Of a stretch of DNA of 64,000 bases, positions 9,476 through 54,080 are shown one piece after another. The position numbers were made by a program, and so were the translations under genes. The DNA is taken from contig JADYZV010000132.1 in NCBI GenBank assembly GCA_020852965.1, positions 1 through 64,000 of the forward strand, given 5' to 3'. This DNA is from Pirellulaceae bacterium. GTDB taxonomy: Bacteria > Planctomycetota > Planctomycetia > Pirellulales > Pirellulaceae. Position 1 is the stretch's first letter. Each line of letters starts with the position of its first letter. The notes under the pieces were generated by a model. The model ran no database searches. It worked only from the letters and a program-made list of their open reading frames with translations, and was not told the DNA's origin.

Positions 9476-11107
9476 ATGTCCGTGTCCCCTCCCAACTCGA
9501 ACCCGAGCTCAGCCCACCGCAGCGGCTTGGCACCACCGGTTCGCAACAGCTCTGCGAGTTACAGCGGTGGTATTGGTCCGATGGGTGCTAACGAATCTGC
9601 CGACGCGCTCCAGGCAGACGAAGATGCGCCAGAGGGTAGCCAGTGGGCGCGACGGTGGCGAAGCTGGAGCCAGCTATGCCGTGCGCGCGGCACACCCGCG
9701 TTTATGGTCAGCTTGATCTTCCACACCTCGCTGTTATTGCTGCTGGCACTATTGACGCTAACCAGTAGCGGTGGATCGGTTCGCAGTTTTGATTTTACTG
9801 CCGCGACCAGCACCATCGACCAGCAGCCGCAGGCAGCTTCACTGTTGCTACCCAGTGGCGATGCGCCTCCGCCGGCGGACATTCAAGATGTCGACCTCGG
9901 GCCTCCTGCGGGGAGTTCCACCAGCGCATCGGGCGCGTTGTCCGAACTGTTGAGCGTCCCTGAGGCATCGGCGGCCCAGACGACCGAGAGTCCTTGGGAT
10001 CAACTGTTACAAGCGACCGGCAACAGCCTCACTGCGAGTTTCACGGGCTCTGGCGTGGCTGGAAGACAACTCGATCACCGAAAACAAATCGCGCTTGCGC
10101 GTGGCGGTACGCTCGAAAGCGAAGCCGCAGTGGAACGCGCCTTGGAATGGCTGGCTGCCCACCAACAACCCAACGGCGGTTGGTCGCTGGTTCACGATGG
10201 CGGAGCATGTCAGGGCCGTTGTCCCGACAACGGTTGTACCGACCGTTTCGATCCAGCCGCAACTGGTCTATCGTTGTTAGCATTTCTTGGAGGCGGATAT
10301 ACGCACCGCGATGGCAAGCACCGTGAGACGGTCCGCCGAGGAGTTTACTTTCTGCAGCAAATCATGGAGGAGACACCGCAAGGGTCGAGCTTCTTACATC
10401 AGAGCGAGCGTGGCATGTACAACCACGGCATAGCTGCATTCGCCTTGTGCGAAGCCTACCAAATGACTGACGATCAGGAATTGCGCAAGAGCGCACAAGG
10501 CGCAGTCGACTTTATCGTCTCAGCACAAAATTATCAAGGTGGCTGGGGCTATCTTCCGAAACAACCCGGTGACTTGACCCTCACTGGGTGGCAGATCATG
10601 GCACTCAAGAGCGCCTATGCGGCTGGTTTGAACGTCCCCCCTTCGACCATCATTCGCATCGATCCATTTCTCGATTCGCAACAAACGGCTTCGAGCTTCT
10701 TCTATGGCTACCAGAAGCCGGGCAAGTCACCGACGTGTACTTCGATCGGGCTATTGATGCGCATGTTTCGCGGCATGCCAAACTCACACCCAACACTGTT
10801 GGACGGTGCAACATTCCTTAGCAAATCGACTCGGCCCGCGTCCGATGCCTATTTCAACTACTATGCGACGCTGTTGCTATTCCATATCGGAGGGCCGTTC
10901 TGGGAACCTTGGAACAATCAAATGCGCGAGCACTTGATTTATTCCCAAGAGCAAACGGGCCACGCGGCGGGGAGTTGGTACTTTGAAGATCCCTATGGTC
11001 GTGAAGGGGGGCGTCTGTATACCACCGCCATGTGTGCGATGACATTGGAAGTCTACTATCGTTTCGCCCCAATCTATCAGCAGGCCGATGTCAAGTTCGA
11101 ATTGTAG
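9476..11107 (+). CDS. Membrane-anchored prenyltransferase/squalene-cyclase-fold repeat protein
   Basis: A 543-residue protein of the alpha6-alpha6 barrel type seen in squalene-hopene cyclases. A polar N-terminus is followed by one transmembrane helix (about 79-98, FMVSLIFHTSLLLLLALLTL), a low-complexity Pro/Ser/Ala linker (about 100-180), then the repeat domain: EAAVERALEWLAAHQQPNGGWS, GLSLLAFLGGGYTH, GVYFLQQIM, YNHGIAAFALCEAYQMT, AQNYQGGWGYLP, and GGRLYTTAMCAMTLEVYYRFAP. The QxxxGGW pattern is typical. The Asp-rich catalytic motif of cyclases is not visible, so it may be a structural or binding paralogue. The family is common in planctomycetes, with unknown role. Confidence 0.82.
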   Translation: MSVSPPNSNPSSAHRSGLAPPVRNSSASYSGGIGPMGANESADALQADEDAPEGSQWARRWRSWSQLCRARGTPAFMVSLIFHTSLLLLLALLTLTSSGGSVRSFDFTAATSTIDQQPQAASLLLPSGDAPPPADIQDVDLGPPAGSSTSASGALSELLSVPEASAAQTTESPWDQLLQATGNSLTASFTGSGVAGRQLDHRKQIALARGGTLESEAAVERALEWLAAHQQPNGGWSLVHDGGACQGRCPDNGCTDRFDPAATGLSLLAFLGGGYTHRDGKHRETVRRGVYFLQQIMEETPQGSSFLHQSERGMYNHGIAAFALCEAYQMTDDQELRKSAQGAVDFIVSAQNYQGGWGYLPKQPGDLTLTGWQIMALKSAYAAGLNVPPSTIIRIDPFLDSQQTASSFFYGYQKPGKSPTCTSIGLLMRMFRGMPNSHPTLLDGATFLSKSTRPASDAYFNYYATLLLFHIGGPFWEPWNNQMREHLIYSQEQTGHAAGSWYFEDPYGREGGRLYTTAMCAMTLEVYYRFAPIYQQADVKFEL

Positions 11108-11334
11108 ATTTCTTCGCCCGGCAGCATGACCTGGAAAAGCATCCATCCCGCCGCGCGAATCTTGGACCGCCTATACCAGCGTTGAGAGTCCGACAAATCG
11201 CAGCTCGCAATTTTGGGTGAGTCGCGTTCTGTCGTGTTGTGCAAGCGGCTTAGTCATGTTTTAATGCGTGGCACTGTCGCACTTGAGCAGCAAGTGAGCG
11301 CTTCAACGTCTTTCTTTTTCCGCAATTCCACCCC

Positions 11335-12162
11335 ATGCTCGAACTCTACAATCAAATCCAAGAAGCGTGCGCTTTTATACGTCAAGCATGGAACCAACAA
11401 CCGCATGCGGGTATCATCTTGGGGACCGGTTTGGGTCCCTTGGTAGAGCAGATCGAGGTGGAAGCGTCGATTGAATACGATTCCATACCGCACTTTCCGA
11501 AATCCACTGCGACCAGCCACCGTGGACGGTTGGTGTGTGGCAATCTTTGCGGGTTGCCCATCATGGCCATGGAGGGCCGTTTTCATATGTACGAAGGTTA
11601 CCCGCTCAAGCAGATTACGCTACCGGTGCGGGTCATGAAGGCGTTGGGGGCGGAGTTGTTGATCGTCTCCAACGCGGCTGGAGGGATGAACCCCTACTAC
11701 AGCGATGGCGACATCGTCGTCATTGAAGACCATATCAACTTGATGGGTGACAATCCCTTGATCGGGATCAACGACGATCGGCTGGGGCCGCGTTTTCCGG
11801 ACATGTGCGCACCGTACGATCTAAAACTAGTCGACGAGGCTTTGGCGATTGCGCGGCGCGAGAACATCGTGGCTCACAAGGGTGTCTTCGTAGCCGTCGC
11901 CGGTCCGAATTTGGAAACACGGGCCGAGTACCGCTTCTTGCGGGCAATCGGTGCCGATGTGGTTGGCATGTCTACCGTGCCAGAGGTAATCGTTGCCGTG
12001 CATTGCAATTTGAGAACGGTCGGCTTTTCGGTGATTACCGATATGTGTTTGCCCGATGCGTTGAAGCCTGCGGATGTTCCCAAGATCATTGCAACGGCAA
12101 ACGAGGCAGAGCCACGACTGCGCACCTTGGTGATGGGAGTGCTCGACAGCAGCAAACGCTAG
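11335..12162 (+). CDS. Purine nucleoside phosphorylase (trimeric PNP family), copy 1
   Basis: A 275-residue phosphorylase splitting purine nucleosides with phosphate into base and ribose-1-phosphate. It shows the phosphate loop IILGTGLGPL, FPKSTATSHRGRLVCG, the MEGRFHMYEGY motif, VSNAAGGMNPYY, and GPNLETRAEYRFLRAIGADVVGMSTVPE with the purine-binding Glu and Met. At the position of human Asn243 it has Asp (SVITDMC). Asp at the equivalent site occurs in methylthioadenosine phosphorylases, so 6-aminopurines may be accepted (inference). The stop TAG shares its G with the GTG start of the second copy, so the two are translationally coupled. Confidence 0.92.
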   Translation: MLELYNQIQEACAFIRQAWNQQPHAGIILGTGLGPLVEQIEVEASIEYDSIPHFPKSTATSHRGRLVCGNLCGLPIMAMEGRFHMYEGYPLKQITLPVRVMKALGAELLIVSNAAGGMNPYYSDGDIVVIEDHINLMGDNPLIGINDDRLGPRFPDMCAPYDLKLVDEALAIARRENIVAHKGVFVAVAGPNLETRAEYRFLRAIGADVVGMSTVPEVIVAVHCNLRTVGFSVITDMCLPDALKPADVPKIIATANEAEPRLRTLVMGVLDSSKR

Positions 12163-13013
12163 TGCTCCTTCCGCCATTGAAACAGCGAGTCGACGAAACG
12201 GTTGCCTACGTGCTCAGCCGGCGGCTGTGGCAGCCCACGGTTGCGATTGTACTTGGCAGCGGTCTGGGTGCGTTGGCGGAGCGCGTCACGCATCGTTCGA
12301 AGCTCGCTTACTCGGACATTCCCCACTTTTGCGCGACGCATGCTAATGGTCACGCCGGTGAGTTGGTCATGGGCTATCTGGCTGGACTGCCCGTGGTGAT
12401 TCTTCAAGGTCGCGCGCATCGCTACGAGGGAATTGCCGATCATCAGGCTCGCTATCCAGTGCGATGCATGCACGCGCTGGGAGCCAGCGTGCTGATCACC
12501 ACCAACGCTGCAGGTGGACTCAACCCGCGTTATCGCGCGGGGGATCTAATGTTGATCGATAGTCATATCGATTTCTTATGGGCTCGTAGCCGGTGGGAAC
12601 TCGCGCAACAAGAACCCGAGCTGGTTCCGCAGATGGCACCGTCACGGGCAACAGTCTACGCCGGCTGTCTACGCGAGCGCGCTCTGGCCATCGCATGCCG
12701 ATTGGCGACGCCCATGCAGCAAGGCTGTTATTTGGCCACACTCGGGCCCACGTATGAAACGCGCAGCGAGTATCGCATGTTCCGCTGGATGGGTGCGGAC
12801 GCGGTAGGGATGAGCACTCTGCCTGAGGTATTGGCTGCGCAGTCGTTGGGTATGCGTTCGCTGGCCTTTTCCGTGATCTCCAATGTGGCTTCGACCGATG
12901 TCCCACAGGCGACGACCCATGCCGAGGTGGTCGCAGCCTGCCACGCGGCTGGCCCACGACTGATGGACTTGATCGAAGGGGTGCTCCAGGAGCTTGCCGG
13001 TCAGCCAGATTAA
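12162..13013 (+). CDS. Purine nucleoside phosphorylase (trimeric PNP family), copy 2
   Basis: A 283-residue paralogue of the preceding protein, with the same motifs: VAIVLGSGLGALAERV, HANGHAGELVMGYL, LQGRAHRYEGI, TTNAAGGLNPRY, and GPTYETRSEYRMFRWMGADAVGMSTLPE. It keeps Asn (SVISNVA) where copy 1 has Asp, the residue expected for 6-oxopurine nucleosides such as inosine and guanosine. The start is GTG 12162, overlapping the previous stop by one base; the open frame further upstream is a shadow of copy 1. A tandem pair with different purine-site residues suggests divided substrate ranges. The products could feed the same pentose pool as the nucleoside hydrolase/ribokinase cluster at 34-38 kb. 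Confidence 0.92.
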   Translation: MLLPPLKQRVDETVAYVLSRRLWQPTVAIVLGSGLGALAERVTHRSKLAYSDIPHFCATHANGHAGELVMGYLAGLPVVILQGRAHRYEGIADHQARYPVRCMHALGASVLITTNAAGGLNPRYRAGDLMLIDSHIDFLWARSRWELAQQEPELVPQMAPSRATVYAGCLRERALAIACRLATPMQQGCYLATLGPTYETRSEYRMFRWMGADAVGMSTLPEVLAAQSLGMRSLAFSVISNVASTDVPQATTHAEVVAACHAAGPRLMDLIEGVLQELAGQPD

Positions 13014-13244
13014 AGCTGCTTGCTTGTTAGCAGCCCAGCGTTCGCAATAAACACGCTTACTCAAATCACAGTCCCCTCGCGCTGGGGTTGAACGAGCGTA
13101 GCGATCCGCACTCGCTACTCGTGCCGTAGCATCGCACGACTTATCACGAGCCCAATGCAGGAGAGCTATAGCGGCGAGTGGTTGAGGCTGAGCTAGTCAG
13201 TGGTTAGCCAATTCCGACTGAACGCAATCGAGCCATGCTTGATT

Positions 13245-14027
13245 TTACAGGGCGCGCAGGTACTGAATCGCATTACCAATTTCGCCGATCGCATCTTGGC
13301 TGTTGATGCGGTCGACGATGTACCAGCCTGCGTAGCGTTGTTCCTCTAATTTGCCGAGGATTAGCGGAAAATCGACCGAACCACGACCTAGCGGAACATC
13401 CACACCGCATCCGCGAGATAGGTCGCGGACCGCATCGCGCGCCGCGACGACCAAGGTCCGACTCGCACAAGATGCGATGCCATCTTCGGTGTAGCAGTCG
13501 CTGATCACCAGATTGCTGGGATTGTAGGCAATCCCGATGGTTTGATCGGCAAGGCTCGCTAATAGCCCGACCAAGCGTTCGACCGGCTCCGACCCCGTTT
13601 CGCAGGCCAGCATGGCCCCAACATGCTGTCCGAAGGCAGCCAAGTCCGCCAGGCTAATTTGCAATTGATCGTAAGCGGGGTGGTTGACGTCATCGGGAAC
13701 GTAACCGACGGCATTGATGACGTGGTTGCACCCGAGGCTGTAGGCAAATCGCATGGCTTGCTTGGTCGCATCGATACGACGATCCAAATCTTGCAAGACA
13801 TCATAACCGCGCTGCGTGGGGAACCGCACCGCTGCAACCCGCAAATTCAGGTCATCCAGCATCTTGCGCAGTTGGCGACGCCCGGTATCGGTAAGTTCCG
13901 AAGGACGAATGCCGGTTCGCGCGTCGATTTCTATTCCAGTGGCACCCAAGCGGGCTGCCGTGTGCAAAGCTTGTTTGAATGGTTGCTTCAAACTACTCAG
14001 CCCGATCCCGATCTTTAGCTCTGGCAA
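13245..14027 (-). CDS. Sugar phosphate isomerase/epimerase family TIM-barrel protein
   Basis: About 260 residues of the AP-endonuclease-2/xylose-isomerase-like TIM-barrel family. Strand motifs: KIGIGLSSLKQPFKQALHTAARLGATGIEIDAR, RVAAVRFPTQRG, SLGCNHVINAVGY, AMLACETGSEPVERL, TIGIAYNPSNLVISD, VDVPLGRGSVDFPLILGKL and YAGWYIVDR. The metal ligands typical of the family are partly visible (E in ACETGSEP; H replaced by N in IAYNPSNL), so activity is uncertain. The frame is open to GTG 14054, but TTG 14027 is preferred: it has GGGAG eight bases upstream and yields MPELKIGIG. This start lies one base from the divergent plus-strand gene. Confidence 0.8.
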   Translation of the reverse strand: MPELKIGIGLSSLKQPFKQALHTAARLGATGIEIDARTGIRPSELTDTGRRQLRKMLDDLNLRVAAVRFPTQRGYDVLQDLDRRIDATKQAMRFAYSLGCNHVINAVGYVPDDVNHPAYDQLQISLADLAAFGQHVGAMLACETGSEPVERLVGLLASLADQTIGIAYNPSNLVISDCYTEDGIASCASRTLVVAARDAVRDLSRGCGVDVPLGRGSVDFPLILGKLEEQRYAGWYIVDRINSQDAIGEIGNAIQYLRAL

Positions 14028-46202: not shown

Positions 46203-47396
46203 TTATTGATACTGGCGTACGGGAGCGGGCCGGCCGAAGTGAAATCCCTGCGCGGTGTAGAAGCCCAAGTTGCGGCACGCCTCAGCCTCTGCGGACGTCT
46301 CAACTCCTTCGGCTAATGGATTGACCCCCAAGTCGATGACCATATTGACCAACGAGGCGAGCATCTTTTGCCGTTCGGGAGGGGCGCTATCGATCCCACG
46401 AATCAACGAGATGTCGAATTTGAGATAGTCGGGGGGCGCTTCGATCAACTCGGTTAGTCGCGTTTGACCCGCTCCAAAGTCATCGTAGGCGATGCCGATA
46501 TTTAGTTCTTTCAATTGCGCCCGCAATTCGCGCATTTCCTTGGGATCGGTAATAGCCGCTTCGTGCACTTCCAAGATAATCGGCACTTCAGCCGACAACT
46601 GACGTGCCGTGGCCATCGAGTCGACCAGTCCTTCGTGACGAATTTCGAGCGGGTGTGTGTTGACAAACAATGTCGAATTGTTGGGCAAGTTCAAGCCCTC
46701 GCGGACCCCTTCCCAACGCAACATACGACTCAACTCGACTTCCATGTTCAATCGCGAGGCCGCATCAAACATCGCCGCACACGACTCGAGACCAAACAAT
46801 CGACTGCGCGCCAAGACCTCGTATCCACGGAACTGGCCGGTTTTCATGTCGATGATTGGTTGGTAGTAGGGTGTCACCAAGCGATTCTCCATCATGCGAT
46901 CAAACTGCACCAGAGCTAGCGCTCGGTCGCACATGTCCTCCTGCATGGTTTGGCAAGTCGTCGAACGTTTCTCGCTTTTGACTCGAAAGGCCATGTCCGC
47001 GAACTGCAGCAAGTCCTCTTCGCGCAAGGGAGTCGATTCTTCAATCCGACGGCCGTTTACATAGGTGCCGTTGGTGCTATTCAGGTCGGTAACCCACAAC
47101 TGACCATTGTCGAGTGTCAATTCCGCGTGATTGCCAGAAATCGTCTTGAAATTGAGCTGTAGCGAGCAGCCAGGGCGTCGTCCCACCGTGAACGGAAGTG
47201 GGTTGACCAAAATCGACTGCTCATCGTGCTCTTTCGATTTGCCGGTTCCATGCAATAGCGTCCACGACGTCTCGCCGGCGTCGCTGGCGACCGACAGCGG
47301 CCCAGTCGGATGACTTAGCGGTGCTGAGATTTTTACTGAGTCCATGGAAACCATGCATCTATATAGGTTGGTGCTTGGATCTAAATCTAAATACAT
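46203..47396 (-). CDS. FHA domain fused to EAL-type c-di-GMP phosphodiesterase domain
   Basis: A 397-residue cytoplasmic protein. FHA domain at about 60-140: FTVGRRPGCSLQL (Gly72, Arg73), ISGNHAEL (Ser87, His90) and DLNSTNGTYVNG (Asn109, Gly110), the phosphothreonine-binding residues. EAL domain at about 165-395: YEVLARSRL (EVL for EAL, Glu193, Arg197), VNTHPLE (Asn246), LEVHEAAI (Glu276, Glu279), YDDFGAG (Asp305, Asp306), LKFD (Lys326), LAEGVET and AQGFHFGRP. All catalytic residues seem present, so hydrolysis of c-di-GMP is likely. It could couple Ser/Thr phosphorylation to c-di-GMP turnover. The start is uncertain: ATGs at 47354 and 47345 are alternatives. Confidence 0.9.
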   Translation of the reverse strand: MYLDLDPSTNLYRCMVSMDSVKISAPLSHPTGPLSVASDAGETSWTLLHGTGKSKEHDEQSILVNPLPFTVGRRPGCSLQLNFKTISGNHAELTLDNGQLWVTDLNSTNGTYVNGRRIEESTPLREEDLLQFADMAFRVKSEKRSTTCQTMQEDMCDRALALVQFDRMMENRLVTPYYQPIIDMKTGQFRGYEVLARSRLFGLESCAAMFDAASRLNMEVELSRMLRWEGVREGLNLPNNSTLFVNTHPLEIRHEGLVDSMATARQLSAEVPIILEVHEAAITDPKEMRELRAQLKELNIGIAYDDFGAGQTRLTELIEAPPDYLKFDISLIRGIDSAPPERQKMLASLVNMVIDLGVNPLAEGVETSAEAEACRNLGFYTAQGFHFGRPAPVRQYQ

Positions 47397-47822
47397 CGAG
47401 AAAGATCACCTTGAAACCTAGGTTACGTTTTACCGAGTGAACAAGAAAAATTTACTTTTTTTTGACGCGTCTCGTTGAAAGCCAACACGTGAGCAACAAA
47501 TAACATGGCGGTTAAGGAAGCATCTCTTTGAATCTCTAACCGTTTGGGACTCGTAAACTCGTCCACTACCGTCAAATTGTCCCTTGACCGACCGCTAGGT
47601 TTCATTTTGATCACGGCAGAGACCGCCGAGCAACTTTACCGGTTCCCCCCAGACGATCGGTATATTCGGCGTTTTGGTTAGAAGTGATACGGCTTTCGAA
47701 TCAAAGTCGGCTGGAATCTCTTTCTTCATTGATACGGTTCCCGCAGGCGATCATGTCGTGTTGTATAGTTCTGCGGAAAAAAGACTCGCGCTCAGCCGCT
47801 CGAACCGAAGCCACATGTGACT
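47397..47822. other. Divergent intergenic region with a repeat B half-copy
   Basis: About 420 bp between the FHA-EAL (minus) and AAA+ (plus) genes, holding promoters in both directions. A right-half copy of repeat family B lies at 47546-47569 (GGGACTCGTAAACTCGTCCA). A short open frame on the minus strand crosses the repeat and is not counted as a gene. A T-run near 47455-47463 is not preceded by a stem. Confidence 0.5.
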
Positions 47823-49442
47823 ATGCATACTAACCGACAAAGCCAGATAACTCGCGACACCGCGTCGATCTCACAGCACGAACTGCCATCGGTCCTTCAC
47901 GATGACCACTATTGGCCGGCCGAGCCGACGTGTCTGGAAGACGCTGGGCTGAGCGAGTCATTGGTCGAGTCGTTGTTGTGTCAAATACTCATGGCGACTG
48001 GGACCATGAGTGGACGCAAACTGGCCGAAGCGATTGGCCTTCCGTTCGGGATCATCGATCAACAGCTTGGCGGTCTGCGCACGCGGCAGCTCGTCGCGCA
48101 TGCGCGCGCCGCGCCATTGAATGACTACTACTACGCGCTGACGGAAAACGGGCAGCGTCGGGCACTGCATCACCAACAGTCGTTCACATACACTGGCCAT
48201 GCTCCAGTTCCGCTCAACGAATACTTGCTATCAGTCGAAGCCCAAGCCAATCAGTTTTCACCCGTTGAGCGCGCTCAACTGATGGATGCTCTGTCGGAGA
48301 TTTCGTTTGAAACCAGTTGGCTTGACTTCCTGGGACCAGCGGTCAACAGTAATGGCGGGATCTTTCTCTATGGACCTCCCGGCAACGGCAAAACCACATT
48401 GGCTAAGTGCCTGACGATTCTGCGCGGAGAAAGCATTTGGATTCCCCATGCGATTATCGACGACGGCATGATTATCAAGTTATATGATGCAGCCTACCAC
48501 AAGCGCAAAGAGGTGGACAACGACGAGAGCCTGGTCAATCTACAGAACTACGATCGCCGTTGGGTGCGCGTTGAACGACCGACCGTAGTCGTTGGTGGCG
48601 AGCTGACGTTAGACAACTTGGAGATTCGACACGATCCGCGCACCAATACCTGCGAAGCGCCCATTCAGCTCAAGAGCAATTGCGGAAGTCTGTTGATCGA
48701 CGACTTCGGACGCCAGCGAGTGGCTCCGGCGGAGTTGCTCAATCGCTGGATCGTACCCCTGGAAAGCAAGATAGATTTCCTTACCCTGCCGACAGGTAAG
48801 AAGATCAGTGTACCGTTCGAACAAATCATACTTTTTTCAACGAACTTGCAGCCATACGATCTGGTGGACGAAGCCTTCCTGCGCCGCGTACCGTTCAAGA
48901 TCGAGATCCGCGATCCGGGCGTAGAGGAATTCGTCGCCCTATTCGAGAAGGCTTGCTTGACGATGGGCTTTCCTTGGCGTCCCGAAGTGATCAAGCAACT
49001 GCTAGATGTTGTCTTTCGAGGAGGAAATCGTCCACTGAGGCGTTGTTACCCCCGCGACTTGTTGAATCAAGTGCGCGCCTATTGCACCTATCGCGGTGAG
49101 CCGCTCGACTTGCGCATCGACTACTTGCAACATGCGTGTCGCAACTACTTCGGCAATCTCAGTTCGCTGACCGGTCGCAGCATGCCTGAGTCGGCTACCA
49201 CTCGTCGGCCCAATAGTCAGCCGGCAGCTTCTCCGAATCGCAATTCCATTCCAACTCCACAGCATTCACAACCGGCCACCTACTCGCCGACTCAACAGGT
49301 TCCAGCAGCGGGAGCTGCGGCACCGACTCCGTCGCCAACCCATGCATTGCAAGCGTCTGCGGTGCAAAGAGCAGCACCAGCCGCCCCTGCCCTTCCGTCT
49401 ATCGCGATCGACGCAACGCAGGCTCTGCCTGCTAACAGCTAA
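47823..49442 (+). CDS. AAA+ ATPase with N-terminal winged-helix-like domain
   Basis: A 539-residue ATPase. Residues ~48-120 look like a winged helix (MSGRKLAEAIGLPFGIIDQQLGGLRTRQLVAHA). The AAA+ core starts near 165, with Walker A GPPGNGKTTLAK (about 184-195), Walker B-like SLLIDDFGRQ, sensor-1 region ILFSTNLQP and an arginine-rich AFLRRVPFKIEI; VFRGGNRPLRRCYPRDLLNQVRAY forms the lid. A Pro/Ala/Ser/Gln-rich tail of ~85 residues follows. It is 38 bp upstream of the kinase-tubulin gene, so co-transcription and joint action are likely. A GTG at 47817 is an alternative start. I do not know a characterised relative. Confidence 0.82.
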   Translation: MHTNRQSQITRDTASISQHELPSVLHDDHYWPAEPTCLEDAGLSESLVESLLCQILMATGTMSGRKLAEAIGLPFGIIDQQLGGLRTRQLVAHARAAPLNDYYYALTENGQRRALHHQQSFTYTGHAPVPLNEYLLSVEAQANQFSPVERAQLMDALSEISFETSWLDFLGPAVNSNGGIFLYGPPGNGKTTLAKCLTILRGESIWIPHAIIDDGMIIKLYDAAYHKRKEVDNDESLVNLQNYDRRWVRVERPTVVVGGELTLDNLEIRHDPRTNTCEAPIQLKSNCGSLLIDDFGRQRVAPAELLNRWIVPLESKIDFLTLPTGKKISVPFEQIILFSTNLQPYDLVDEAFLRRVPFKIEIRDPGVEEFVALFEKACLTMGFPWRPEVIKQLLDVVFRGGNRPLRRCYPRDLLNQVRAYCTYRGEPLDLRIDYLQHACRNYFGNLSSLTGRSMPESATTRRPNSQPAASPNRNSIPTPQHSQPATYSPTQQVPAAGAAAPTPSPTHALQASAVQRAAPAAPALPSIAIDATQALPANS

Positions 49443-49480: not shown

Positions 49481-52400
49481 ATGTCCATTCGTCCAGCAAC
49501 CAAGAGCGGCTCGGAACCGATTCCCGGTTACACGCTGCGCAAACGACTCGGAGCGGGTGGCTATGGCGAAGTCTGGTTAGCCGACGCGCCGGGCGGATTG
49601 CAAAAAGCGGTGAAGCTGATCTATGGTACTTTGGATCAGTCACATGCAACGAGCGAACTGCGCAGTCTGCAGCGCATTCGCCAAGTCTATCACCCGTTTT
49701 TGTTGTCGATCGAACGGATCGAGATCGTTGATAGCCAAGTCATCATAGTGACCGAGCTGGCCGAAAGCAGCTTGCTGGATCGATTCGAGCAATGTCGTCG
49801 CAAAGGTGCGCCAGGCATCGAGCGATCTCAACTGCTGGACTTCATGCGCGACGCCGCTGACGCTCTCGATTACCTATCGCAAAAGCACGCGTTGCAGCAC
49901 TTGGACATCAAGCCAGGCAACTTGCTAGTCATAGCCGACCGTATCAAGGTCGGCGACTTTGGCTTGATCAAAGACTTGCACGACCAGAATCAATCGCTGG
50001 TAAGCGGCCTAACGCCGACGTACTCTGCACCTGAGATCTTTGACGGACGGCCCGACTATCGCAGCGACCAGTATTCGCTGGCGATTGTCTATATGGAGAT
50101 GCTGGCGGGGCAGGTTCCGTTCAATGGAAAATCGACGGGTGAACTAGCACGTCAGCATTTGACCCAACAACCGGACCTCGACTCGCTACCACCGGCCGAT
50201 CGACCGGTAGTTGCGCGAGCGCTGTCGAAGAATCCGCTAGATCGCTTCGGCACATGCCGGCTGTTTATCGAACAGTTGCTGAAGACGCGGGGCGCGGTAC
50301 TGCCGGCCTCCCAATTCCGCTCCGATTCAACCGTCGAGCAAGAGAGCGTCGAGGCGTTGACGCGGATTGAGGATCGCAAGACTTCCACTGCATCGTCACT
50401 GTCTGACCAGCATGTTCTGCAACCCGCGATTGATATGCGTAGCATGGCAAGTCGCTGGAACAATCCGCGCGCGATGTTCATTGGACTCGGCGGACTCGGT
50501 GGGCAAGCATTGAGCCGCATCCGGCAACTGGCAAAGCTCGATTGCGACAATCGACTCGACATGGACGACCATGCTTGGTCGGTGATCGACACCGACGCCG
50601 AATCGCTTAATTCCTTGACGAGCGATGAGCAAGAGCACTGTCTTCCATCACAAGTTGCTTTTGAATTGCGGATTTTTCACCCAAGCGAATACCGTGATGC
50701 CAATCCGGAACTGTTTTGTCCGCTCTCGCGCCGCTGGCTATACAACATCCCGCGTTCGCAAAAAACGGAAGGGGTGCGGCCCCTGGCGATCCTTTCGCTG
50801 CTCGATCACTACGGCCCTCTGCGCAATCGGATGAGCAAAGACCTGGCAGATTTGATTCAAAAACACGAGGCGGACGCTGACTGCCAAGAGCCGCTTCGCA
50901 TCTACCTGCTGTCATCATTGCATGGCGGCACGGGTAGTGCGCTCCTAGGCGAACTGGGGCTGATGATTCGCCGAATCATGTCTGAACGAGGATTCAGTAA
51001 CTATCGTCTATGCGCGATTGCGTCGGCAGCAACCACGGCAAACAATTCGAACGCTAATTTACATTCGGCGGCAGCGATTGCCACGCTGTCAGAGCTGACC
51101 TACCTGATGGATCGCGACAACGAAGTGGCCCCATTGCATTTCGGAGACAAACTCCATGCCGCCTCGTCACACAAACCGTTCGATTGGGTCACGCTGGTCG
51201 AAGGGGGCATGCATGGAATGAAGAGCGATGCTGACAAAGCTGCGGCAGAGCTCGCCAGTGTTGCTTGGATCGACGCACAGTCCGCGCTCGGCTCCGCCAT
51301 GGCAGAAGCACGACTCGAAGCAAGCCAACAGGCTGCCGAGTCGAACGCCTGGCTGCGCTCTGCCGACTATGTTTCATTGAGCGTATCGGCAAATGTCACA
51401 GCAGCTCGATTGGCGCGTTGGTGCTGTGAACAGACACTCACGCTGGCACTCCAAGCCTTCGCTGGGCCTCGAGGCCTCGCAACCAGTTGCACTCGGAGTC
51501 CGGAGCCTGTGTCTTCGAACTTGGCAACTGCGAGCGGCGACTTTCCGTTGACGCTACAAGCCAGCGAGGATTTTTCGAATCGTTTCATGGCGGAATTGGG
51601 GCTCAGCACCAACGATTCTCCCAACCAGGCCGAGTCTGCAACGTTAGGCGATCCGGCCAACGCCCAGCATCGATGGGCGCGGCGTATCGCAGAGGATAGC
51701 GACGTGGTCAGACTGCAGTTGCTTGAAGACCTTGTGACCTGGAAAGACACCATTGCCAAAATTGTTAAGCTTCGCATCTACAATTGGAAGCAGATCGAAC
51801 AGATTCAGCTTCACACGATCGAGGCCATCATCGGCTTTTACGAGCGGCAGGCTTCTCAAATTGCCGAAGATCTGCGCCCTACCAACTCGCATCGTCGCTC
51901 CACCGATGAATTGTCCAATGCCGTTCGTGACTATCTGAAGGTCTTCAGTGAAAAGTGTTTGGAACAGCTTCAAGAGTTCCAACGCGGCGGACGCACATTG
52001 GCGCGCAAGGTGCGCAGTTGGTGCGATTCCATCGGTGCCGAAAAAGCTCTCAACGAAACCTCGTGGGATGTGAACTTGTCGGGCTTGCCTCCCAAGCTGC
52101 AATTGTTGGCCAATCGAGTCAGTGCAGTTCTCGAGTCGACAATCCACCGCATGGCCGCACAACAAGTCGGCCTGGAGAAGGTCTCTCGCCAACGAGATCA
52201 AGCCGACATACTACTCAGTGATTCCTCATTTAACCTCAAAACCATCTTGTCGTTATCGACCGATCTGACCTCGCGACTTTCGGGCGAAATGGGAATCACC
52301 CCCGAGGAGCTCAATGGCTCACAGGAAACAGACGAACCGATGCTTTCGTTTAAGCAAATCGACAAGTATTTCCCTGCAATAACGCAAAGTGCCTCACAAC

Positions 52401-52780
52401 TCCATCGTTTCGTTATCACCCCGGTAGAGCAGGAACAAGTCGCACTACGCGCGCTCAAGCGGGAGAAACTCGACGGTAAGACAACGCTCATCGCCGCTCG
52501 TAGAAGTCTCGATTCCTGTCTGCTGTGCGAAGGCGGCAGGCTCAAACTGTATCAGCTCGTCAGCTCCTTGTGGCGTCCTTGCCCCAAGACACTGCAGCTA
52601 GCCGAACGATTGAGAACGCGCATTGACGTGGAATGGTATCCGGCCACTCGCTTGCTCGATGTGACGCAAGAGGAAGATGTGCACCTCCAGGTCGCCGCCG
52701 CCGCACCGGCTAGCCTACCGCTTAGCAACGTGGCCGTCAGTAGCCTACCCGTCGCCAGTAGCGGCACCCCTGCGTTGTAA
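49481..52780 (+). CDS. Serine/threonine protein kinase fused to tubulin-like domain
   Basis: A 1099-residue protein. Kinase domain about 16-268: Gly loop GAGGYGEVW (24-32), Lys45 (KAVKLIY), HLDIKPGNLL (140-149; HLD in place of HRD, so a non-RD kinase), DFG (159-161) and APE (183-185). A linker follows. A tubulin/FtsZ-superfamily-like part starts at about 329 with AMFIGLGGLGGQALSRI and has HGGTGSALLGELG (481-493), resembling the GTP-binding GGTGSG loop; I assign it to the Tubulin_2-type family. The remaining ~500 residues are helical (linkers around EQIQLHTIEAIIGFYERQ). Cytoplasmic; no membrane segment seen. Substrates unknown. It lies directly after the AAA+ gene. Confidence 0.87.
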   Translation: MSIRPATKSGSEPIPGYTLRKRLGAGGYGEVWLADAPGGLQKAVKLIYGTLDQSHATSELRSLQRIRQVYHPFLLSIERIEIVDSQVIIVTELAESSLLDRFEQCRRKGAPGIERSQLLDFMRDAADALDYLSQKHALQHLDIKPGNLLVIADRIKVGDFGLIKDLHDQNQSLVSGLTPTYSAPEIFDGRPDYRSDQYSLAIVYMEMLAGQVPFNGKSTGELARQHLTQQPDLDSLPPADRPVVARALSKNPLDRFGTCRLFIEQLLKTRGAVLPASQFRSDSTVEQESVEALTRIEDRKTSTASSLSDQHVLQPAIDMRSMASRWNNPRAMFIGLGGLGGQALSRIRQLAKLDCDNRLDMDDHAWSVIDTDAESLNSLTSDEQEHCLPSQVAFELRIFHPSEYRDANPELFCPLSRRWLYNIPRSQKTEGVRPLAILSLLDHYGPLRNRMSKDLADLIQKHEADADCQEPLRIYLLSSLHGGTGSALLGELGLMIRRIMSERGFSNYRLCAIASAATTANNSNANLHSAAAIATLSELTYLMDRDNEVAPLHFGDKLHAASSHKPFDWVTLVEGGMHGMKSDADKAAAELASVAWIDAQSALGSAMAEARLEASQQAAESNAWLRSADYVSLSVSANVTAARLARWCCEQTLTLALQAFAGPRGLATSCTRSPEPVSSNLATASGDFPLTLQASEDFSNRFMAELGLSTNDSPNQAESATLGDPANAQHRWARRIAEDSDVVRLQLLEDLVTWKDTIAKIVKLRIYNWKQIEQIQLHTIEAIIGFYERQASQIAEDLRPTNSHRRSTDELSNAVRDYLKVFSEKCLEQLQEFQRGGRTLARKVRSWCDSIGAEKALNETSWDVNLSGLPPKLQLLANRVSAVLESTIHRMAAQQVGLEKVSRQRDQADILLSDSSFNLKTILSLSTDLTSRLSGEMGITPEELNGSQETDEPMLSFKQIDKYFPAITQSASQLHRFVITPVEQEQVALRALKREKLDGKTTLIAARRSLDSCLLCEGGRLKLYQLVSSLWRPCPKTLQLAERLRTRIDVEWYPATRLLDVTQEEDVHLQVAAAAPASLPLSNVAVSSLPVASSGTPAL

Positions 52781-52856: not shown

Positions 52857-53342
52857 TTAGCCGATGCGCATCGCCACCATTTGCTGATTCCCTTCAGCTA
52901 GTGCCGAAAGATAGAGTAGTTCCGAACGACCGCATTTCTTGACGCGGCTTAACTCGATCACCCTCCGCATCACGTCGCGACGGCTGATTTGTCCCAGCAA
53001 TCGACCATTTTCCAGCACTGGCAAGCGCCGTGTCGCTTGATCCAAGAAGGTTTGACAAATGGTGAGCATCTCCGTGTCAGGTTCGATGGTAGGTGCCTGC
53101 AAGTCCACAAAGGGCATCAGCCCTGCGTCTGGCAAATTGTCATAGGCCGCGTTGACGATCACTCGCATGCTCGAGCTCTCTGAAAACACTCCTAGATATC
53201 TCCCTTGGGAATCGACCACGGGTGCGCCCGAAATCCGCTTGCGCAATAGAATGTCAATGGCCGAAAAAACATCTAGATCTGGTGAGAGAGTCACCAAATT
53301 CTGCGTCATCATGTCACGCGCGAGAATTGCCGTACCGGTCAT
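52857..53342 (-). CDS. CBS domain pair protein
   Basis: A 161-residue protein made of two CBS domains: about 8-60 (ARDMMTQNLVTLSPDLDVFSAIDILLRKRISGAPVVDSQGRYLGVFSE) and 80-130 (APTIEPDTEMLTICQTFLDQATRRLPVLENGRLLGQISRRDVMRRV). CBS pairs bind adenosine-type ligands such as AMP, ATP, SAM or c-di-AMP and act as sensors. No effector domain is attached. Start ATG 53342 has AAGGAG eight bases upstream; a second in-frame ATG lies two codons earlier at 53348. The gene converges on the kinase-tubulin gene 77 bp away. Confidence 0.88.
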   Translation of the reverse strand: MTGTAILARDMMTQNLVTLSPDLDVFSAIDILLRKRISGAPVVDSQGRYLGVFSESSSMRVIVNAAYDNLPDAGLMPFVDLQAPTIEPDTEMLTICQTFLDQATRRLPVLENGRLLGQISRRDVMRRVIELSRVKKCGRSELLYLSALAEGNQQMVAMRIG

Positions 53343-54080
53343 CTTCATATCTCCTTCGAAAGGTTGAAAAGGTGCTGCTGTTGGAAAAACAACGGCCAAG
53401 GAGCAATGCGGCTGCGGCAGGAATCTGGCTGGCTAATAACCAAGGCCAATCGCCGAGTAGCGCATCGTTCACCTTACCAATTGGCAGAGGGCATTACAAA
53501 TCAATTCAACGCGTTCGAACACTTAGTTTGTGAAAGGTTGGTTCATCCAGGCGATTCATTACCTCGTCCACTACACCAAACCCTAAGATTAAAAATGGTC
53601 GAAGCACTAGTCGTTATCTCTACGACAAGCCGAGTGTCTCAATCGAACTCACCCTACCCAATTGCTGCTCGAAGTTCATTCTCAAGTTGGAGTCGCTGCT
53701 CTACCTCTCGCTTGAGACGGTCATCGAAAACGGAGCGACCTGCCTTTTCAAATTCGCTATCTTGACATATTGAACGGTTTGGGATAGAAAAGCGTCGATG
53801 AGTCCACCATAACAATTAACTTTCTGGCCCCCAACCGCCGTGCAGTATTATTTGTGCTGGACACGCGGCTTCTCAGTGGCCTTGACGCTTTTTTTTCGCG
53901 TAAACTCCGGGTCCGTCACATCGCATCTTGTCGAATACTACGTGACGTGAGCCTACGTTACTTTTCGTCTTAGCGACGATGCTGCACGATGCCGAGCCAC
54001 TTCCCGCTCGTTGTTCCGGCGTCAATGAGAAACAAGTAGCGGCAGACTTCTTCAGTTAATTACTTGGTCGGAACCATGCC
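53343..54080. other. Long intergenic region with repeat B half-copy and a possible gene relic
   Basis: About 740 bp. Right-half copy of repeat family B at 53557-53611 (ACCTCGTCCACTAC, then TCGAAGCACTAG). A short minus-strand coding-like stretch at 53654-53815 is listed separately. The rest, including an AT-poor stretch up to 54000, shows no gene, RNA gene or other repeat that I recognise. The promoter for the 54081 gene and prfC should lie near its right end. Confidence 0.45.
53654..53815 (-). pseudogene. Possible C-terminal relic of a lost gene
   Basis: A ~53-codon minus-strand frame without a proper start. Its last residues (DSEFEKAGRSVFDDRLKR, then EVEQRLQLENELRAAIG) look like a real helical protein end with normal codon use. 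No family recognised. It may be the remnant of a gene destroyed by insertion or deletion around the repeat B copy. A chance open frame is equally possible. Confidence 0.25.

Follow-up and report, generated by a model that had tools for sequence, protein, structure and literature searches.

What could a Ser/Thr kinase fused to a tubulin-like domain be doing in a planctomycete? The question is raised by a 64,000-nucleotide (nt) stretch of DNA from a Pirellulaceae bacterium (assembly GCA_020852965.1, contig JADYZV010000132.1, positions 1–64,000 of the forward strand; hereafter the window), in which a kinase–tubulin protein (KT) is encoded next to a KT-linked AAA+ ATPase (AAA-1) and an FHA–EAL protein (FE). 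Across the loci compared the order of these genes changes and the set stays together. The reading that we favour, with moderate confidence, is that this module forms a phosphorylation-to-cyclic di-GMP (c-di-GMP) hub on a tubulin-like GTPase, with reset by the AAA+ protein; KT is a planctomycete FtsZl1 protein with an N-terminal non-RD kinase and would act in a conserved Ser/Thr phosphorylation–c-di-GMP gene module.

The fusion itself is already known and not new, as it is reported in three papers, drawn on here, like those cited below, for part of their text: FtsZl1 was defined by Makarova & Koonin 2010, with an N-terminal kinase on four planctomycete members (PMC2875224); the kinase on planctomycete FtsZl1 is repeated in PMC9871819; and a tubulin-like domain is given as the commonest partner of purely cytoplasmic planctomycete kinases in PMC11032199. 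The gene setting appears to be little known. For Pirellula staleyi, a reviewer of PMC2875224 pointed to a single neighbour that is a diguanylate phosphodiesterase, and the authors replied that such genes occur in just one or several close organisms; 'FHA' has no occurrence in the main text of that paper, and no fuller account of such a module beyond it was found among the matches listed in our literature search (titles and abstract openings, with few subscription journals).

The KT gene and its kinase half lie as follows.

49481–52780, + strand: KT, ATG start, 1099 residues (open reading frame (ORF) list and translation)
49529–50251, + strand: Ser/Thr kinase domain, KT residues 17–257, non-RD, with HLD at 49898–49906 (Pfam, residue conservation)

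Pfam Pkinase matched KT residues 17–257 (E = 5.7e-29), with HLDIKP starting at residue 140 and VGDFG at 157 (GLGGLGG and HGGTGSA, of the tubulin-like half, start at 335 and 481), and the catalytic set K45, E59, D142, N147 and D159 is all present in the window KT, bearing out the first-pass annotation, which had described an N-terminal kinase complete except for HLD instead of HRD. The family set comprised 60 genomes, 37 of them carrying Tubulin_2; 35 of the 39 Tubulin_2 proteins in these 37 were kinase-fused, so that the fusion is found in 35 of the 60 genomes and 25 are without it. Among the 35 family KTs, K45, Asn147 and the DFG Asp are conserved in 35 each, and E59 and D142 in 34 each. Position 141, before the catalytic Asp, is Leu in 35/35 rather than the Arg of RD kinases; of 98 rows in a bigger alignment, 97 have Leu141 (the other one has a gap) and 96 the activation-segment Thr178. 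Because the catalytic residues and Leu141 are conserved across the family, the KTs look like active rather than broken kinases, of the HLD-bearing, non-RD type; with Leu141 in 35/35 and 97/98, HLD is, as judged from these alignments, a family trait and not a defect of the window copy. The sole catalytic-Asp change among the 35 (D142N) was observed at L046:8129-11482, a locus without FE or AAA.

The tubulin-like half of KT has the following features.

50477–51262, + strand: Tubulin_2 (FtsZl1) profile match, residues 333–594 (Pfam, 67 bits; AlphaFold2 and Foldseek)
50483–50503, + strand: T1-type glycine loop GLGGLGG, residues 335–341 (sequence, alignment)
50921–50941, + strand: T4-type loop HGGTGSA, residues 481–487 (sequence, alignment)
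51554–52165, + strand: helical region, residues ~692–895 (AlphaFold2 secondary structure)
52379–52696, + strand: C-terminal alpha/beta region, residues ~967–1072, with a conserved AxRLxTRxDVxW motif (alignment, model)

From about residue 329 onwards the protein had previously been called tubulin-like by motif, and this is upheld by both the profile and the predicted fold. Pfam Tubulin_2 (PF13809) matched residues 333–594 at E = 2.3e-18 and 67 bits against a curated cut-off of 27. The AlphaFold2 model of residues 308–1099 (52 sequences) reached a mean predicted local distance difference test score (pLDDT) of 83.9 and a predicted template-modelling score (pTM) of 0.74, and in a Foldseek search against the PDB the best 50 of 586 matches (E up to 10) all belonged by title to the tubulin/FtsZ superfamily, the best of those listed being CetZ 3zid (6e-5; template-modelling (TM) score 0.45 by target length and 0.21 by query length, the latter low because the helical region and the C-terminal alpha/beta piece fill much of the model). 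A tubulin/FtsZ fold of KT is thereby supported at the level of the predicted model, and the outcome that would have spoken otherwise, a model lacking a tubulin-like core or matches to an unrelated family, did not occur. The FtsZl1 loop GGGTG(S/T)G has a near match in the T4-type loop HGGTGSA, and GLGGLGG is a loop of the T1 type; FtsZl1 has a coiled-coil, mostly helical C-terminal part, to which the helices ~692–895 of the model would correspond, followed by the short alpha/beta piece. We infer that KT may bind GTP and assemble.

KT shares with FtsZ the superfamily and the T1/T4-type loops; unlike FtsZ it has no PF00091 match (none at E up to 1), an N-terminal kinase, and a helical region after the tubulin-like core. 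The genome itself (99.5% complete) gave no PF00091 match at E up to 0.001, the same search being positive in 13 of 14 control genomes, in agreement with the earlier remark that planctomycetes lack FtsZ, as the phylum is also described in PMC11032199. That KT is FtsZ proper was rejected on the missing PF00091 match in protein and genome, and an NAD-binding or other Rossmann family was rejected as well, since Pfam matched none of these up to E = 1 and Foldseek listed tubulins. A sequence search of the PDB with KT residues from 324 on had no match up to E = 1. Another contig of the same genome encodes a further Tubulin_2 protein, this one kinase-free (L067:7323-10424, contig C80; 1034 residues, 80 bits), surrounded by ABC-transporter, solute-binding and helicase genes.

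Upstream of KT the other two members of the set are encoded.

47817–49442, + strand: AAA-1, winged-helix-like plus AAA+ ATPase, 541 residues, separated from the downstream KT by 38 nt (two alignments, of 23 and 33 sequences, AlphaFold2, Foldseek)
47934–48176, + strand: winged-helix-like N-terminal region of the ATPase, residues ~40–120 (helix-helix-helix-hairpin in the model)
48372–48395, + strand: Walker A GPPGNGKT of the ATPase (alignment)
47397–47816, no strand: divergent intergenic region of 420 nt between the FE and ATPase genes (ORF map)
46203–47396, − strand: FE, 397 residues, divergently transcribed (Pfam, orthologues)
47001–47189, − strand: FHA domain of FE, residues 70–132 (Pfam 4.2e-20; checked residues conserved)
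46227–46904, − strand: EAL domain of FE, residues 165–390 (Pfam 5e-41; eight checked catalytic residues present)

At the eight catalytic positions of EAL domains, the window FE has ENEDDKEQ (8/8 present), and it is predicted from its sequence to be an active EAL c-di-GMP phosphodiesterase. For the ATPase, a candidate MoxR/helix-2-insert type AAA+ protein, Pfam matches were weak, confined to Walker A and below the cut-offs, with none to a helix-turn-helix; 8p49, archaeal Lon, BchI, RuvB, CbbQ and NorQ are among its Foldseek matches, and the winged-helix-like N-terminus is our reading of the model. The three nearest KT neighbours scanned are FHA-EAL, AAA and CBS proteins, with no vWA, OmpA-like or GTPase protein among them. 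The last of the three, a two-CBS-domain protein just downstream of KT (52857–53399, − strand), had a similar gene in 0 of the other 38 regions compared.

Is the neighbourhood conserved? The window, 38 regions and 80 named loci, the last taken from 157 relatives found, gave 119 loci, from which 10 duplicates, L054 (no local Tubulin hit), L040, L045 and L067 (no kinase) and L123 and L128 (contig-end cuts) were dropped, leaving 103 distinct kinase+Tubulin loci; near-identical loci were retained and counted unless exact copies. In addition, row L053 was left out of alignment A2 as spurious, and row L038 out of one profile as an apparent sulfatase-type ORF by reading of the sequence. FE was found within 2.3 kb of KT in 90 of the 103 loci and AAA within 5 kb in 80, in 79 of these on the KT strand. 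Among the gene orders were FE(divergent)-AAA-KT (52), FE-AAA-KT (3) and AAA-KT-FE (6); 27 loci have a receiver-GGDEF-CBS gene beside FE-KT, 11 of them with AAA as well; the incomplete sets are AAA-KT only (8), FE-KT only (2) and KT alone (5). When 39 regions were compared, FE had matches in 21–29 loci besides its own, AAA had them in 23 and KT in 33–34; other flanking genes were matched in at most 12, except for a 278-residue gene (L066) matched in 32, most likely via a kinase domain. In a KT tree of 102 rows the gene-order classes do not form single clades (class I, 9 changes; class II, 8). One KT relative in this tree, on a 3260-base contig labelled Candidatus Nealsonbacteria (L159), sits among planctomycete sequences, and so its label is likely a binning error. 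The further comparison comprised 19 regions outside the family (L191 and L208 among them repeat named loci): KT carries a kinase in all 19, with FE near it in 11, AAA in 9 and neither in 8.

Co-occurrence was counted in a class-wide sample of 248 genomes, where the 47 genomes with a tubulin domain of at least 238 bits are the same 47 that have AAA-1 at no less than 646 bits, spread over eight family codes, and AAA-1 is found in 0 of the 201 others. Within the family set, AAA-1 (at least 690 bits) was present in 30 of the 35 KT genomes versus 0 of the 25 others; the five misses are contig-cut pieces beside KT/FE (G034, G052), fragments of uncertain assignment (G008, G020) and a genome with a paralogue only (G004). 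AAA-1 is located elsewhere in several genomes in which it is not beside KT. Many genomes hold AAA-1 together with a paralogue (35–49% identity to the window ATPase), which had no constant neighbour in its 20 regions, no gene being matched in more than three others.

Two states of FE were distinguished by its residues. In 88 of the 90 FEs no change is seen at the eight FHA positions checked; the remaining two are an FE with a single change and an FE cut at a contig end. For the EAL domain, 58 of the 90 keep all eight residues, and none of the 58 adjoins a receiver-GGDEF-CBS gene; every one of the 27 FEs that do adjoin such a gene has changes among these residues. Three FEs without that gene (L038, L043, L170) are changed as well, and two FEs are cut. 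The receiver-GGDEF-CBS genes themselves lack GG(D/E)EF in 27/27. In a domain test of five of them (L048, L061, L062, L142, L207), two had all three domains over the cut-off, in two GGDEF was accompanied by weaker matches to the receiver or CBS domain, and in L062 CBS alone was matched. The pattern recurs in the 11 FEs outside the family, with EAL intact in 7/7 without the receiver-GGDEF-CBS gene, changed in 4/4 with it, and FHA unchanged in 11/11. Judging by these residues, the FHA domain appears to be the constant reader, and the enzyme part seems intact in one group and decayed alongside a cyclase-like neighbour in another; a degraded EAL and a degraded GGDEF with an intact FHA show which part of FE is under steady selection. 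The FE tree (99 rows) has long branches and is compatible with single or repeated EAL decay.

A cyclase of another kind than the receiver-GGDEF-CBS gene, with an intact RxGGDEF motif, is encoded on one strand with FE, AAA and KT at five distinct loci (L148, L189=L191, L192, L193, L205), two within the 103 and three within the 19 further regions; in these the cyclase lies ahead of FE and the FE EAL is intact. In the L192 set the mechanical ORFs are 29 nt apart, 25 nt apart and overlapping by 4. Further GGDEF genes with RxGGEEF were observed near KT loci at L044:4229-5149 and L141:1794-3452, one of them directly downstream of KT. The window's own genome holds nine GGDEF matches over cut-off.

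The favoured hub reading is supported by the domains, the predicted fold, the linkage, the co-occurrence and the way in which active sites are intact in some loci and degraded in others. In this mechanism, the tubulin-like domain would bind GTP and assemble or dimerise KT; the assembly could gather the kinase domains, leading to Thr phosphorylation at a site on KT itself or on partners; the FHA domain of FE may dock on the phospho-Thr, upon which the EAL domain would change local c-di-GMP, a level that in some lineages a co-encoded diguanylate cyclase could also alter; and the AAA+ ATPase might remodel or reset the KT assembly. A precedent for FE is Bdellovibrio DgcB (PMC6733907), whose FHA domain, on sensing a phosphopeptide, switches on a GGDEF enzyme, a coupling of phosphopeptide sensing to a c-di-GMP enzyme like that proposed for FE; DgcB differs in being a single protein, with GGDEF instead of EAL and activation by its own N-terminal region, and its abstract names no tubulin-like kinase or AAA+ partner.

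Several observations weigh against this reading. Linkage does not prove contact between KT, FE and AAA, and the set is not always complete. FE is missing from 13 of the 103 loci, most of which end near a contig edge, and is absent despite at least 6 kb of sequence on both sides in L046, L053 and L137 only; 23 loci have no AAA in reach, 16 of them with at least 6 kb of upstream sequence, and there AAA is therefore truly not beside KT. The eight of the 19 outside regions with neither FE nor AAA near KT belong to family codes f17 and f20 and one f18 genome. Any tubulin-domain match was found in 110 of the 248 genomes, of which 63 are weaker-scoring and all without AAA-1; together with the f17, f20 and f18 cases this implies that KT-type proteins are able to function outside the module. 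The agreement of the 47 genomes is to be read with the AAA-1 and tubulin-domain score cuts set after the lists had been seen, the AAA-1 profile built from KT-adjacent genes, and the genomes scored by tubulin domain alone, kinase presence per genome being no part of the score; as genomes and loci are related, p-values would overstate and counts are given instead. FE-type genes whose EAL is intact are found at sites without KT as well (in 11 such cases, no neighbouring gene was matched in more than three of the others), and strong FE relatives (421–525 bits) are present in four fusion-less genomes (G012, G016, G042, G046). Within KT, the T4 loop differs among relatives (GGTGS to GGFGS, GGTAS, GATGS and others) and GTP binding may therefore not be universal, no T7/H7 counterpart was identified, and inspection by eye of nine close sequences showed no conserved phospho-site for FHA in the linker between the kinase and the tubulin-like domain. 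As an observation on the f17 and f20 relatives, the kinase-bearing KTs of L198–L204, with no FE/AAA nearby, often have several matches per genome.

Other explanations have been weighed on the same evidence. KT may be a cytoskeletal filament that remodels membranes, the role put forward for FtsZl1 in 2010, with kinase and c-di-GMP partners that merely tune it; we regard this as rather unlikely. Its tubulin-like fold, as modelled, and the missing FtsZ match in its own genome agree with a filament, and the FtsZl1 authors favour membrane remodelling and consider filaments likely (PMC2875224), whereas the same authors describe FtsZl1 as without recognisable T6-H7 elements, the T4 loop is variable, and the conserved neighbours are FHA-EAL and AAA. 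The FtsZl1 of that paper, the same family with the same kinase fusion as KT, is tied instead, commonly though not universally, to vWA, OmpA-like and GTPase genes. A pair close to that 2010 FtsZl1-vWA setting was observed in a genome of the same family, where a kinase-free Tubulin_2 protein (L054:7086-10451) adjoins a VWA/PKD-domain protein (10516-13728). Tubulin-like proteins also figure in conflict systems, in which AAA+ or GTPase proteins are joined with tubulin-family proteins in planctomycetes and others (MoxR-vWA/GTPase-tubulin systems; PMC7159879); these carry vWA or GTPase and effector genes, unlike the KT locus with FHA-EAL and sometimes a diguanylate cyclase.

That our locus is such an anti-phage or other conflict system, akin to those MoxR-vWA and GTPase-tubulin systems or to kinase-based defence, is disfavoured and highly improbable: in PADLOC the kinase part was matched best by the MAD6 and PD-T4-6 kinases, the published systems join MoxR AAA+ proteins or GTPases with tubulins (PMC7159879), and presence in the family is not universal (35/60), whereas the best 25 of the 26 PADLOC matches all lie within KT residues 1–313, i.e. 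kinase and linker, the set is spread across eight family codes of the class, and no widely shared effector-like gene was seen among the neighbours compared. Kinase-based phage defence was dropped, as the listed PADLOC matches fall in the kinase part. It is also conceivable, and in our view unlikely, that the kinase output is central, with the tubulin-like region a non-polymerising nucleotide sensor or dimeriser and FE, AAA and KT co-regulated towards separate targets; the kinase residues are better conserved than the T4 loop, and both intact FE relatives and, in some genomes, AAA-1 lie apart from KT, whereas at the cuts used every genome of the 248 with AAA-1 also had a high-scoring KT-type tubulin domain, and the set was kept together through gene-order changes.

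The setting thus described suggests a signalling hub rather than an FtsZ stand-in. Between the two roles that the first-pass annotation had offered, the neighbourhood favours the signalling scaffold; a role in cell structure or as a replacement for FtsZ found no direct support, 25 of the 60 family genomes being without the fusion. With the conserved partners of KT, what had been just two fused domains becomes a route that experiments can test, in which a kinase would signal to an FHA reader and on to c-di-GMP. If true, such a coupling of phosphorylation to c-di-GMP on a tubulin-like base would amount to wiring of a new kind. More speculatively, and with low confidence, a kinase-bearing, GTP-dependent tubulin-like assembly may serve FtsZ-less bacteria as a spatial hub, whose phospho-Thr would be read by FHA–EAL (and, in some lineages, joined by a cyclase) and whose assembly would be reset by the AAA+ protein, so that local c-di-GMP could steer budding or the swarmer–sessile cycle.

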